Assembly (NCBI GenBank): GCA_020831635.1
Contig: JAFIGC010000002.1
Location: 1 to 64,000, forward strand
Reading direction: 5' to 3'
DNA length: 64,000 nucleotides
Source: Verrucomicrobiota bacterium
GTDB lineage: Bacteria > Verrucomicrobiota > Kiritimatiellia > SS1-B-03-39 > UBA6053
Program-made: the position numbers and the translations under genes
Notes under the pieces: generated by a model
Databases searched by the model: none
What the model saw: only the letters and a program-made list of their open reading frames with translations
Told to the model about the DNA's origin: nothing
Shown here: one piece after another, positions 7,223 to 64,000 of the stretch
How positions within the stretch are numbered: position 1 is the stretch's first letter
How the letters are laid out: each line of letters begins with the position of its first letter

Positions 7223-7272
7223 TTTTCCGACGCTCGGAACGCCATTGGAAAAGTCTTCCGACGCTCGGAAAA
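7223..7272. repeat. Double-palindrome element copy A (TTCCGACGCTCGGAA - 16 bp - TTCCGACGCTCGGAA)
   Basis: Palindromes at 7225-7239 and 7256-7270, intergenic between two minus-strand genes; same architecture at 28647-28692 and 63645-63690. Confidence 0.9.
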
Positions 7273-28646: not shown

Positions 28647-28692
28647 TTCCGAGGTTCGGAAGGTTTTGGGTCGGGGCTTCCGAGCCTCGGAA
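28647..28692. repeat. Double-palindrome element copy B (TTCCGAGGTTCGGAA - 16 bp - TTCCGAGCCTCGGAA)
   Basis: Same 15-16-15 layout as copies A and C; lies immediately 5' of the 27376..28641 start codon. Confidence 0.9.
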
Positions 28693-55073: not shown

Positions 55074-55150
55074 TGGAGCCGGCAGAGGGATTCGAACCCC
55101 CGACCGATTGATTACAAATCAATTGCTCTGGCCAACTGAGCTATGCCGGC
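55074..55150 (-). tRNA. tRNA-Thr (anticodon TGT), CCA encoded
   Basis: Minus strand GCCGGCATAGCTCAGTTGGCCAGAGCAATTGATTTGTAATCAATCGGTCGGGGGTTCGAATCCCTCTGCCGGCTCCA. Confidence 0.97.
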
Positions 55151-55564: not shown

Positions 55565-57304
55565 CTATTTTTCCCCAAAGGGCTTGGCATGACAATTCAG
55601 AATCCGCTTGGCCGTGAAGGCGGCTTTGCGGGCGAGGGGGATGCCGTAGGTTTTGGCTTGTTGGATTTCGGCCACGGCGTGTGCGTCCGGACAAATGGCG
55701 GTTTTCAGGCCGACTTCGGCGGCCAAGGCCCCCCAGCGCCAGTCGAGTTCCATGCGTTGCGGGGTGCAGTTGAGTTCAATGCCGACTCCGCGTTCGGCGG
55801 CCAGACGGATGATGGCTTCCATTTGCAGTTTCGCGCCTTCCCGCTTGAGCAACAACCGTGCGGTGGGATGGCCGAGCAGGGTGACGGCGGGATGGCGCAG
55901 GGCGGTTTCCACCCGCGCCTGCATCGCCGAGACCTCTTGGTCCAACTGACTGTGCAAACTGGCGATGACAAAATCAAAGCCTTCGAGAATCTCATCGGGA
56001 TAGTCGAGCCGTCCGTCGATGAGAATGTCGCTTTCCATGCCCTTGTACACGGTGAAATCCACGCCTTCGTCTTTGAACTTTTGGTTGAGCGCGTCGATTT
56101 CCTTCCATTGGGCCTGCACGCGTTCGATGCTCAGTCCGCCCGCGTAGCCCGCGCTCTTGGAATGGTCGGTGATGCCCAAATATTTGTACCCTTGATTGAG
56201 GCAGGCGCGGGCCATGGTTTCGATGTCGTCCGCTCCATCGCTCCAAGTGCTATGGGCGTGTAGAATGCCTTGAAGGTCGTTTTCGGTGACCAAATTCGGC
56301 AATTGATGATTTCGGATGAGCGTTTCGTAGGGGCCTTCGCGCAATTCCGGAGGCGTGTAGGGCAGATCCAAGGCGGCGTAAAGTTCGGCTTCGGTTTCGC
56401 AGGGCAGGGGATGTTCCCGGTCGGCTTCGCCCTCCTTGAGGGGGTAGAGTCCGTATTCGTTGAGGGTGAGATTCTTTTCCCGGGCCCGTCCGCGCAGGAA
56501 AACATTGTGTTCCTTGCTGCCCGTGAAATAGAGGAGGGCGGCGGCGAAGGATTTCGACTCCACCGTGCGCAGATCCATTTGACGTCCATTGCCCACCCGC
56601 ACCGAGCTTTTGGTGGCTCCGGCCGCCAGGACTTCGGTGACTTCGGGGAGGCTTCGAAAGCATGCGTGCAGATCCTCGGGTTCATCGCAGACCGACAGAA
56701 AATCCAAGTCGCCGATGGTTTCTCGACAACGGCGCAGACTGCCCGCGATTTCCAATTTCCGCAGGCCGTCCACTTTTTTCAATTGTTCCCGGGCGGTTTC
56801 GGCCAACGCCAAGGCTTCGTCATATCGGCAACGATCCGCATGTTGGGCCCGCCATTGAATCGCCTCCAGGATTTTTTCGGCGGATTTTTTGCCGAATCCG
56901 GGCAAGTCCGCGACGCGGCCATCCTCGATGGCGGCCTGGAGTTCGGTCAGGGTGGTGATGTCCAAGGCCTTGTGGATTTTCGCGGCCCGTTTGGGTCCCA
57001 ATCCCGAAATGTCCAGCCATTCGATGAGGGCTGCGGGAATTTGGGCTTCCAATTCCTCCAGGGCCGGAAGCCGTCCGGTTTCCATATACGCGTGCAAATC
57101 CTTGGCGATGGAGCTTCCGATGTTCGGAAGTTCTTTGAGCGAGGCTTCCGAGTCACGGTCGCGCAGGGCTTCGCCTTCTGATTCCACGACCGCGGAGGCT
57201 TTTTCGTAGGCAATGGCCTTGAAGTCCGAAGCGCCGGAAAGCCGCAGCAGCTCGGCGGTGCGTTGCAAAAGGTCGGGGAGGCGGTAGAGATCGGGTTTGG
57301 ACAT
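55565..57304 (-). CDS. polX: DNA polymerase X family protein with PHP domain
   Basis: HhH motifs (LPNIGSSIAKDLHAYM, LPGFGKKSAEKILEAI), IAGSLRRCRETIGDLDFL, PHP-domain motifs ILHAHSTWSDGADDIE, LGITDHSKS. Confidence 0.93.
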   Translation of the reverse strand: MSKPDLYRLPDLLQRTAELLRLSGASDFKAIAYEKASAVVESEGEALRDRDSEASLKELPNIGSSIAKDLHAYMETGRLPALEELEAQIPAALIEWLDISGLGPKRAAKIHKALDITTLTELQAAIEDGRVADLPGFGKKSAEKILEAIQWRAQHADRCRYDEALALAETAREQLKKVDGLRKLEIAGSLRRCRETIGDLDFLSVCDEPEDLHACFRSLPEVTEVLAAGATKSSVRVGNGRQMDLRTVESKSFAAALLYFTGSKEHNVFLRGRAREKNLTLNEYGLYPLKEGEADREHPLPCETEAELYAALDLPYTPPELREGPYETLIRNHQLPNLVTENDLQGILHAHSTWSDGADDIETMARACLNQGYKYLGITDHSKSAGYAGGLSIERVQAQWKEIDALNQKFKDEGVDFTVYKGMESDILIDGRLDYPDEILEGFDFVIASLHSQLDQEVSAMQARVETALRHPAVTLLGHPTARLLLKREGAKLQMEAIIRLAAERGVGIELNCTPQRMELDWRWGALAAEVGLKTAICPDAHAVAEIQQAKTYGIPLARKAAFTAKRILNCHAKPFGEK

Positions 57305-57358
57305 GGTTGTTTCGGGTTTTCGGTTGAGATGCGGGGGGATACAGCGTACACTTGTTTC

Positions 57359-58258
57359 ATGACCGATCCAAACAAAAACCAAGCATCGAAAGAAAATGAA
57401 GTGGAAATCCTGGTCTTCGGGGAGGTGTTGTACGATTGCTTTCCCGATGGTCGTCGGATTTTGGGGGGCGCCCCCTTTAATGTGGCTTGGGGCTTGCAAG
57501 GTTTTGGTCACGCCCCCCACATGATCAGTGCCGTGGGGGCGGATGCGGACGGCATCGCGGTTCGCTCCCGCATGGAAGCGTGGGGTATGAACACGATTGG
57601 TTTGCAGACGGATGCCGAACACGGCACCGGGATCGTGGAGGTGACGGTGCGGGATGGCGAGCCGACCTACGAAATTTCCGCGCCCCGCGCCTGGGATTTC
57701 ATTCTCGATCCGGGGATTTCGAATCCCGGCATGCTCTATCACGGCACCTTGGCCCTGCGCGGGGAACGCAGTCGGAAAACGTTCGAAGCGCTTCGTTCGA
57801 GGTCGGACGCCCCCCGCTTTTTCGATGTGAATCTCCGTCCGCCCCACACTCCGGTTTCCTTGGTTCGGGATTTGTTGCCGGGGGCGGCCTGGGTGAAAAT
57901 GAATTTGGACGAGTTGGGCGAGGTCGTCGGGGAGGACGGTTTGACCCTGGACGGGTCGGATGCGGTCATTGACGCATTTTTGGCGGAATACGAGGTGGGC
58001 ACGCTTTTGCTCACCGCAGGGGCCCAAGGGGCCAAATTGCGCGGCGCGTATGGGAATGCCACGGTTTCTCCGGCGCCCGCGCCCAAGAAAATAGTGGATA
58101 CCGTGGGGGCGGGAGACGCGTTTTCAGCCGTGACCCTGAGCGGAATCCTGAGAAACCGCGATGCGGGCAAAATCATCGAAGACGCGGCAAAATTTGCCGC
58201 CAAGATCTGCGGACTCCGCGGCGCGACATCTGATGAGGCCGCCTTTTATGTCCTTTAA
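57359..58258 (+). CDS. PfkB-family carbohydrate kinase (fructokinase-like)
   Basis: FGEVLYDCFPDGRRILGGAPFNVAWGL; KIVDTVGAGDAFSAVTLSGIL. Confidence 0.9.
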   Translation: MTDPNKNQASKENEVEILVFGEVLYDCFPDGRRILGGAPFNVAWGLQGFGHAPHMISAVGADADGIAVRSRMEAWGMNTIGLQTDAEHGTGIVEVTVRDGEPTYEISAPRAWDFILDPGISNPGMLYHGTLALRGERSRKTFEALRSRSDAPRFFDVNLRPPHTPVSLVRDLLPGAAWVKMNLDELGEVVGEDGLTLDGSDAVIDAFLAEYEVGTLLLTAGAQGAKLRGAYGNATVSPAPAPKKIVDTVGAGDAFSAVTLSGILRNRDAGKIIEDAAKFAAKICGLRGATSDEAAFYVL

Positions 58259-63636: not shown

Positions 63637-64000
63637 ATGGCCGTTTCCGACGCTCGGAACCCCAAAAAGAAAAGCTTCCGACCGTCGGAAGTCACCGCCA
63701 TACGCGGTCCGATGCTCACTTTTCGCACCGACCCATGGATGGTTTCGGAGTCGGAGTCGGTGGACTACGAATCGGACGCCCTTGTGGTCATGGAAAACGG
63801 ATTGATCCGCGAGGTCGGCCCGGCGGATCGCATGTTGCCGCAGCTCGAACCCGGCGTGGAGGTGACCCGGTGGAAAGACCATTTGATTCTTCCCGGATTC
63901 ATTGATTGCCATACCCATTTCCCGCAAACTGACATGATTGCCGCGCGGGGGAATGATTTGCTGGACTGGCTGAACCGCTACACCTTTGTGGAAGAGCAGG
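63637..64000 (+). CDS. guaD: guanine deaminase, 3' end beyond window (true start could be 63712)
   Basis: LILPGFIDCHTHFPQTDMIAARGNDLLDWLNRYTFVEEQ, typical of guanine deaminase. Confidence 0.8.
   Translation, partial: MAVSDARNPKKKSFRPSEVTAIRGPMLTFRTDPWMVSESESVDYESDALVVMENGLIREVGPADRMLPQLEPGVEVTRWKDHLILPGFIDCHTHFPQTDMIAARGNDLLDWLNRYTFVEEQ
63645..63690. repeat. Double-palindrome element copy C (TTCCGACGCTCGGAA - 16 bp - TTCCGACCGTCGGAA)
   Basis: Same 15-16-15 layout as copies A and B; overlaps the first codons of the 63637 ORF. Confidence 0.9.

Follow-up and report, generated by a model that had tools for sequence, protein, structure and literature searches.

A helically phased double palindrome recurs in genomes of the Kiritimatiellae: a candidate site for chromosome organisation

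Background

At three places in the 64,000-nucleotide stretch of DNA analysed here (the window), two palindromes with TTCCGA/TCGGAA arms stand at one fixed distance from each other, which raises the question of whether this arrangement is a structured RNA, a mobile repeat or a site on the DNA itself. A first-pass annotation had read it as a small dispersed intercistronic repeat, possibly an RNA switch, a processing site or a MITE. To my knowledge, few chromosome-wide systems of sequence-specific sites are known in bacteria, and none in which the pairing of palindromes is obligatory, in helical phase and held at the same codons in different genera. A search of open-licence papers on repeats or palindromes in Kiritimatiellota, and on TTCCGA/TCGGAA, found no description of the element, although an earlier mention is possible.

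Results

Copies in the window

Direct reading of the sequence and a pattern scan place the palindromes of copy A, both TTCCGACGCTCGGAA, at 7225..7239 and 7256..7270, 31 bp from centre to centre, around a 16-bp spacer (7240..7255, read directly) that holds the A-tract GAAAAG. The pattern scan returned copy B (TTCCGAGGTTCGGAA at 28647..28661 and TTCCGAGCCTCGGAA at 28678..28692) and copy C (TTCCGACGCTCGGAA at 63645..63659 and TTCCGACCGTCGGAA at 63676..63690) with the same 31-bp step, and all six palindromes lie where the first-pass annotation had put them, with partners exactly 16 bp apart. The scan also found a seventh perfect palindrome (57115..57129), which belongs to a further copy, D, inside a PolX-like gene (55565-58027, minus strand); exactly 31 bp from it lies a degenerate partner with 3 mismatches (57146..57160). 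With at most one mismatch allowed, the scan yields 8 matches in the window against 0.39 expected, and none of 100 shuffles reaches 8; base composition predicts 0.003 single palindromes free of mismatches in 64 kb, and about 2e-10 doublets for any one spacing. The peptide FRASE, which had been seen to recur in unrelated open reading frames, is explained by the repeat, as TTCCGAGCGTCGGAA can be seen by inspection to translate in frame to FRASE.

The copies had also been described as lying between a stop codon and the next start. This is true of A and B; copy C does lie only 12 bp past a stop codon, yet it is overlapped by a short open reading frame that runs off the end of the window. The common strand on which the three spacers had been aligned was a choice of the annotator, and the intergenic spacers of the window's genome show a central A/T run either way.

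Copy number and obligate pairing

The window holds 3 copies of the doublet TTCCGAnnnTCGGAA-N16/17-TTCCGAnnnTCGGAA, and its genome about 169, against 0 for a reversed-pattern control, which bears out the description of a dispersed, multi-copy repeat of strict geometry. More precisely, perfect doublets in this 6.0-Mb draft (G000) number 138 if the spacer is fixed at 16 bp and 169 if it may range over 10-24 bp. All 35 adjacent palindrome pairs less than 400 bp apart in 407 kb of this genome are spaced at exactly 31 bp, in regions that were picked around 31-bp matches; the 32-bp form emerged in later searches. Where 3-4 units follow one another in the window's genome, the 31-bp step is maintained, and those relatives carrying the element that have names are Kiritimatiellota.

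The main test genome was B12222 (CP120722), a complete genome from the Kiritimatiellota. It contains 117 perfect palindromes, all of them in doublets: 98 make up 49 perfect doublets, and each of the remaining 19 is paired, 31 or 32 bp away, with an imperfect copy, as tallied from searches with mismatches. Its spacers measure 16 or 17 bp only, in a search that covered 10-24 bp (reversed control 0). A tolerance of 3 mismatches brings the totals to 47 for the 31-bp step and 40 for the 32-bp step, again with a control of 0. The first-pass annotation had named, as a finding that would speak against it, equal frequency inside genes combined with random spacer lengths; the frequency within genes is indeed high (see below), but the spacer lengths are not random.

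On average a site occurs about every 50 kb in B12222 and every 35 kb in the window's genome. Copy number is uneven, from 3 perfect doublets in G005 to 169 in the window's genome and 1054 of a looser form in G017, and this wide variation sits oddly with a fixed architectural need. Three genomes of the same family (G006, G005 and G010; L118, L123 and L127) have few or no perfect doublets and show degenerate ones at 31 or 32 bp in small samples; their consensus seems relaxed rather than lost. A gene for an Eco29kI-like restriction endonuclease (L094, 1064-1711; also L013) adjoins a 31-bp doublet, and in two species, G002 and that of the window, the orthologous gene is found with a near-identical spacer in this doublet.

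Location relative to genes

In 800 kb sampled from B12222, genes contain 26 of the 46 doublets, with all three frames represented, and 20 are intergenic or at gene edges, with gene positions taken from a simple purpose-written gene caller. The term intercistronic therefore does not fit the element; it arose because the three copies in the window happen to be intergenic or nearly so, unlike the genome as a whole. In the window's genome, location depends on the form: among sampled doublets, 40 of 44 with the 31-bp step are intergenic, whereas all 25 with the 32-bp step are in genes (p = 6e-15). Intergenic copies show no tie to promoters, being enriched neither upstream of genes nor in divergent regions, and in convergent-gene intervals they are neutral to slightly enriched, with a mild excess in G000 and G001.

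Conservation at fixed codons

The in-gene sites can be followed between genomes. All 9 orthologous gene pairs that can be compared between B12222 and B1221 have the element at the identical codon and in the same frame. Synonymous codon identity for these two genomes is 78% inside the elements against 51% in the flanks (60 codons on each side); part of this excess comes from selecting sites that are perfect in both genomes, which leaves the coincidence of codons unaffected. Several of the shared in-gene sites are also present in the window's genus. Of 10 genomes of the family, 8, from three genera, retain the ileS site in full or almost so: three, each of a different genus, carry a doublet free of mismatches, five carry one with 1-3 mismatches, and two have lost it. 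In other families the sequence of this region is unrelated. The site imposes the residues FRxSE...SEHR where the protein could otherwise vary freely. The host genes (IleRS, KdtA, a TRAP transporter, alpha-2-macroglobulin, an amine oxidase) are functionally unrelated. Judged by these comparisons, the in-gene positions are inherited vertically and are under selection at the level of DNA.

Intergenic 31-bp arrays vary more, and are more lineage-specific, than the in-gene 32-bp sites, so that local duplication may be multiplying some of the sites. A triple at 32-bp steps, which is rare, lies in a gene of the window's genome (L218 10040-10118, G000:C138); its ortholog has a doublet in both B12222 and B1221.

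Helical phase

The two spacings differ in the composition of their spacers. AA/TT steps make up 26% at 31 bp (n = 166) against 7% at 32 bp (n = 73; p ~1e-28), and AT content is 53% against 40%. The effect could have been a by-product of coding versus intergenic location, which is ruled out: the AT effect persists in permutations restricted to strata of genome and in-gene status (0 of 5000) and is also present if only genes are considered, and the AA/TT difference is seen among the in-gene sites taken by themselves (p = 6e-11) and within each genus. A-tract DNA is overwound, so a split between 31 and 32 bp is expected if the rotational setting of three helical turns is held constant. The predicted twist from centre to centre is 1065 degrees for the 31-bp form and 1094 degrees for the 32-bp form, values which straddle the 1080 degrees of three full turns. 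Among the doublets listed for other families, all 87 lie at 30-32 bp where 25-39 bp was allowed. No conservation of the flanks was seen beyond 1-2 bases.

Spacing around the chromosome

In B12222, the one complete genome in which even spacing was assessed, the coefficient of variation of the gaps is 0.60 against 0.98 for random placement (n = 77 sites with at most 2 mismatches; P < 1e-4), and the largest gap is 147 kb against 283 kb; the perfect sites alone show only mild regularity (P = 0.02). Density is flat across six bins between the two GC-skew switch points, with no bias to origin or terminus, and sites are present at 2.85-2.98 Mb as well as at 0.50-0.57 Mb. On some contigs of the window's draft genome, sites stand 1-3 kb apart.

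Distribution and dialects within the class

Across 390 genomes of the phylum, the TTCCGA doublet is restricted to the window's family. The element as such is not, since a de novo scan of other families found TTCCAA versions, with TTCCAAnnnTTGGAA doublets at 31 or 32 bp. A loose core, TTCC-N7-GGAA occurring twice, is present in 10 copies or more in 47 genomes, which by my tally belong to 13 families of the same class; one genome has as many as 1054, and no genome outside the class exceeds 8. The inner bases define dialects, namely GA in the window's family, AA in families f8, f17, f22 and f33, and AY in part of f27; the words are thus TTCCGA, TTCCAA and TTCCAY, around a constant TTCC/GGAA core at a spacing of 30-32 bp.

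Some genomes stand apart. The spacers of the arrays in G055 (f27; also L294) are near-identical copies in which AAATCGTAAAAAAGTTT and AAATCGCCAAAAAATCT alternate, a pattern which suggests that these arrays may have grown by tandem duplication. G097 (f47), from another class, has 8 TTCC-N7-GGAA doublets where the control has 0. In G011, of the same order as the window, another doublet, made of two TAGGGCCTGTCCCTA exactly 31 bp apart (L250 658-703), occurs together with GTCCAAGGNCTGGAC pairs at 21 bp; these are possibly further dialects, or else unrelated repeats.

Discussion

I propose, with a probability of roughly 0.6, that the doublets are obligate paired sites for a putative protein acting as a dimer of dimers, set out over the whole chromosome and most likely serving as an architectural or positional mark. 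Each element would be a site on double-stranded DNA in which two palindromic operators with identical arms face the same side of the helix, three turns apart, and a dedicated sequence-specific protein would bind it solely as two dimers in contact with each other. Contacts in the major groove would read the TTCC...GGAA half-sites, the spacer would be constrained in twist and length only, and tandem arrays of 3-5 units could be extensions of the same complex. Sites in and between genes would be kept in place by selection. An architectural or positional role, which I infer from the even, gene-independent placement from origin to terminus, might consist in nucleoid organisation, segregation or the coupling to division rather than in regulation of neighbouring genes, by a logic like that of the Noc and SlmA site sets.

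Those nucleoid-occlusion sites, Noc in Bacillus subtilis and SlmA in E. coli, resemble the doublets in being palindromic and dispersed over the chromosome; the Noc sites (NBS) are about 70 palindromes scattered round the chromosome and served by a dedicated protein (PMC4331003). However, NBS and SBS are absent from the terminus, whereas the doublets in B12222 run evenly from origin to terminus, and the obligate pairing at three turns sets the doublets apart. A ParB homologue is present in each of 24 genomes, and each genome of the family has exactly one ParB-type HTH gene, so a Noc paralogue is excluded. The parS sites of ParB are likewise short chromosomal palindromes, but they are few, lie near the origin and have a different sequence. 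Among the genes that adjoin conserved sites (polA, SNF2, flavin reductase and others) I saw no obvious candidate for the binding protein.

Of the other explanations, a structured RNA was the first to be put forward, as a switch or processing site, and a terminator would be of the same kind. Every copy can be folded into a single long hairpin (z-scores -3.3 to -4.9), but palindromes fold by definition, which is why they fold so well, and their centres do not covary as such a hairpin needs: in B12222 none of 46 are complementary, and in other genomes complementarity is near chance. The long hairpin is under no selection. The many in-gene sites in all frames, their inheritance at the same codon and a spacing that follows A-tracts in the DNA and depends on twist speak against RNA switch, processing site and MITE alike. 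Nothing terminator-like was found at copy A, and an Rfam search gave no match for the element, a tRNA gene (55077-55150) being the sole match in the window. I regard a structured RNA as very improbable. An intrinsic terminator was rejected on the grounds of copy A and because other copies lie in genes; a CRISPR-like array of constant repeat and variable spacer was rejected as well, since the sites are dispersed and in genes and the composition of their spacers is constrained. The doublets might instead be the operators of a global transcription regulator with a large regulon. The closest known geometry is that of the NrdR boxes, which are few per genome, lie in promoters and have a different sequence. 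NrdR box pairs are bound cooperatively, best with a spacer of 15-17 bp that sets the two palindromes three turns apart (PMC12051234), and the doublets, with spacers of 15-17 bp only, match this geometry. Yet the doublets number from tens to more than 1000 per genome, mostly outside promoters, and are not a few copies upstream of ribonucleotide reductase operons; many sit deep in functionally unrelated genes, and those between genes favour neither upstream nor divergent regions, which makes such operators improbable. Selfish palindromes of the REP/BIME type, moved by a RAYT-type transposase and later partly domesticated, would explain the hundreds of palindromic copies, the tandem arrays, the copy numbers that differ between relatives, the near-identical spacers in some arrays (G055) and the mild convergent-gene excess in G000 and G001. 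REPs are often intergenic, though, which does not hold for the in-gene doublets counted above in B12222 and in the 32-bp sample of G000, and I know of no fixed helical spacing or in-gene conservation among REPs. The recurrence of sites at one codon in different species and genera, a spacing fixed at 30-32 bp with compensated twist while spacer sequences are unrelated, and flanks that are unconserved past 1-2 bases likewise argue against this origin, which I consider rather improbable.

The main rival, on account of the lineage dialects, is that the doublets are self-marks for DNA uptake in natural transformation, similar to the DUS of Neisseriaceae and the USS of Pasteurellaceae, and spread and maintained by biased uptake and recombination instead of by a task inside the cell. 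USS and DUS are single asymmetric words that occur about once per 1-2 kb. They share with the doublets a genome-wide distribution both in genes and between them, and the dialects around a constant TTCC/GGAA core in 13 families parallel the DUS dialects, which share a core in the same manner (PMC3630211). Even spacing has been claimed for USS too, by Karlin as cited in PMC1939737, and a drive through uptake would help to account for the change of dialect over whole genomes. On the other hand, the doublets are palindromes paired on one helical face rather than dense single words, obligately so at three turns (117 of 117 in B12222) and often in tandem arrays, and they are sparse in some genomes; at one site per 50 kb, as in B12222, most fragments would bear none. 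I therefore consider an uptake mark unlikely, and favour paired sites for an architectural protein.

Conclusion

A broader proposal, which I make tentatively and at slightly less than even odds, is that the doublets belong to a previously undescribed chromosome-organising system of the class (Kiritimatiellota, Kiritimatiellae), in which an abundant putative protein would occupy obligate three-turn pairs at roughly even intervals, override codon choice and change dialect as a whole set between lineages. The thousands of sites, with their natural 30-, 31- and 32-bp variants, are a ready-made helical-phasing experiment in vivo. Should the doublets turn out to be related to uptake, they would be a palindromic, phased uptake signal with no parallel known to me, and would show how dialects spread. 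If their role is architectural, they would provide a readable map of chromosome domains in a phylum with few genetic tools, and a route to a new nucleoid protein.
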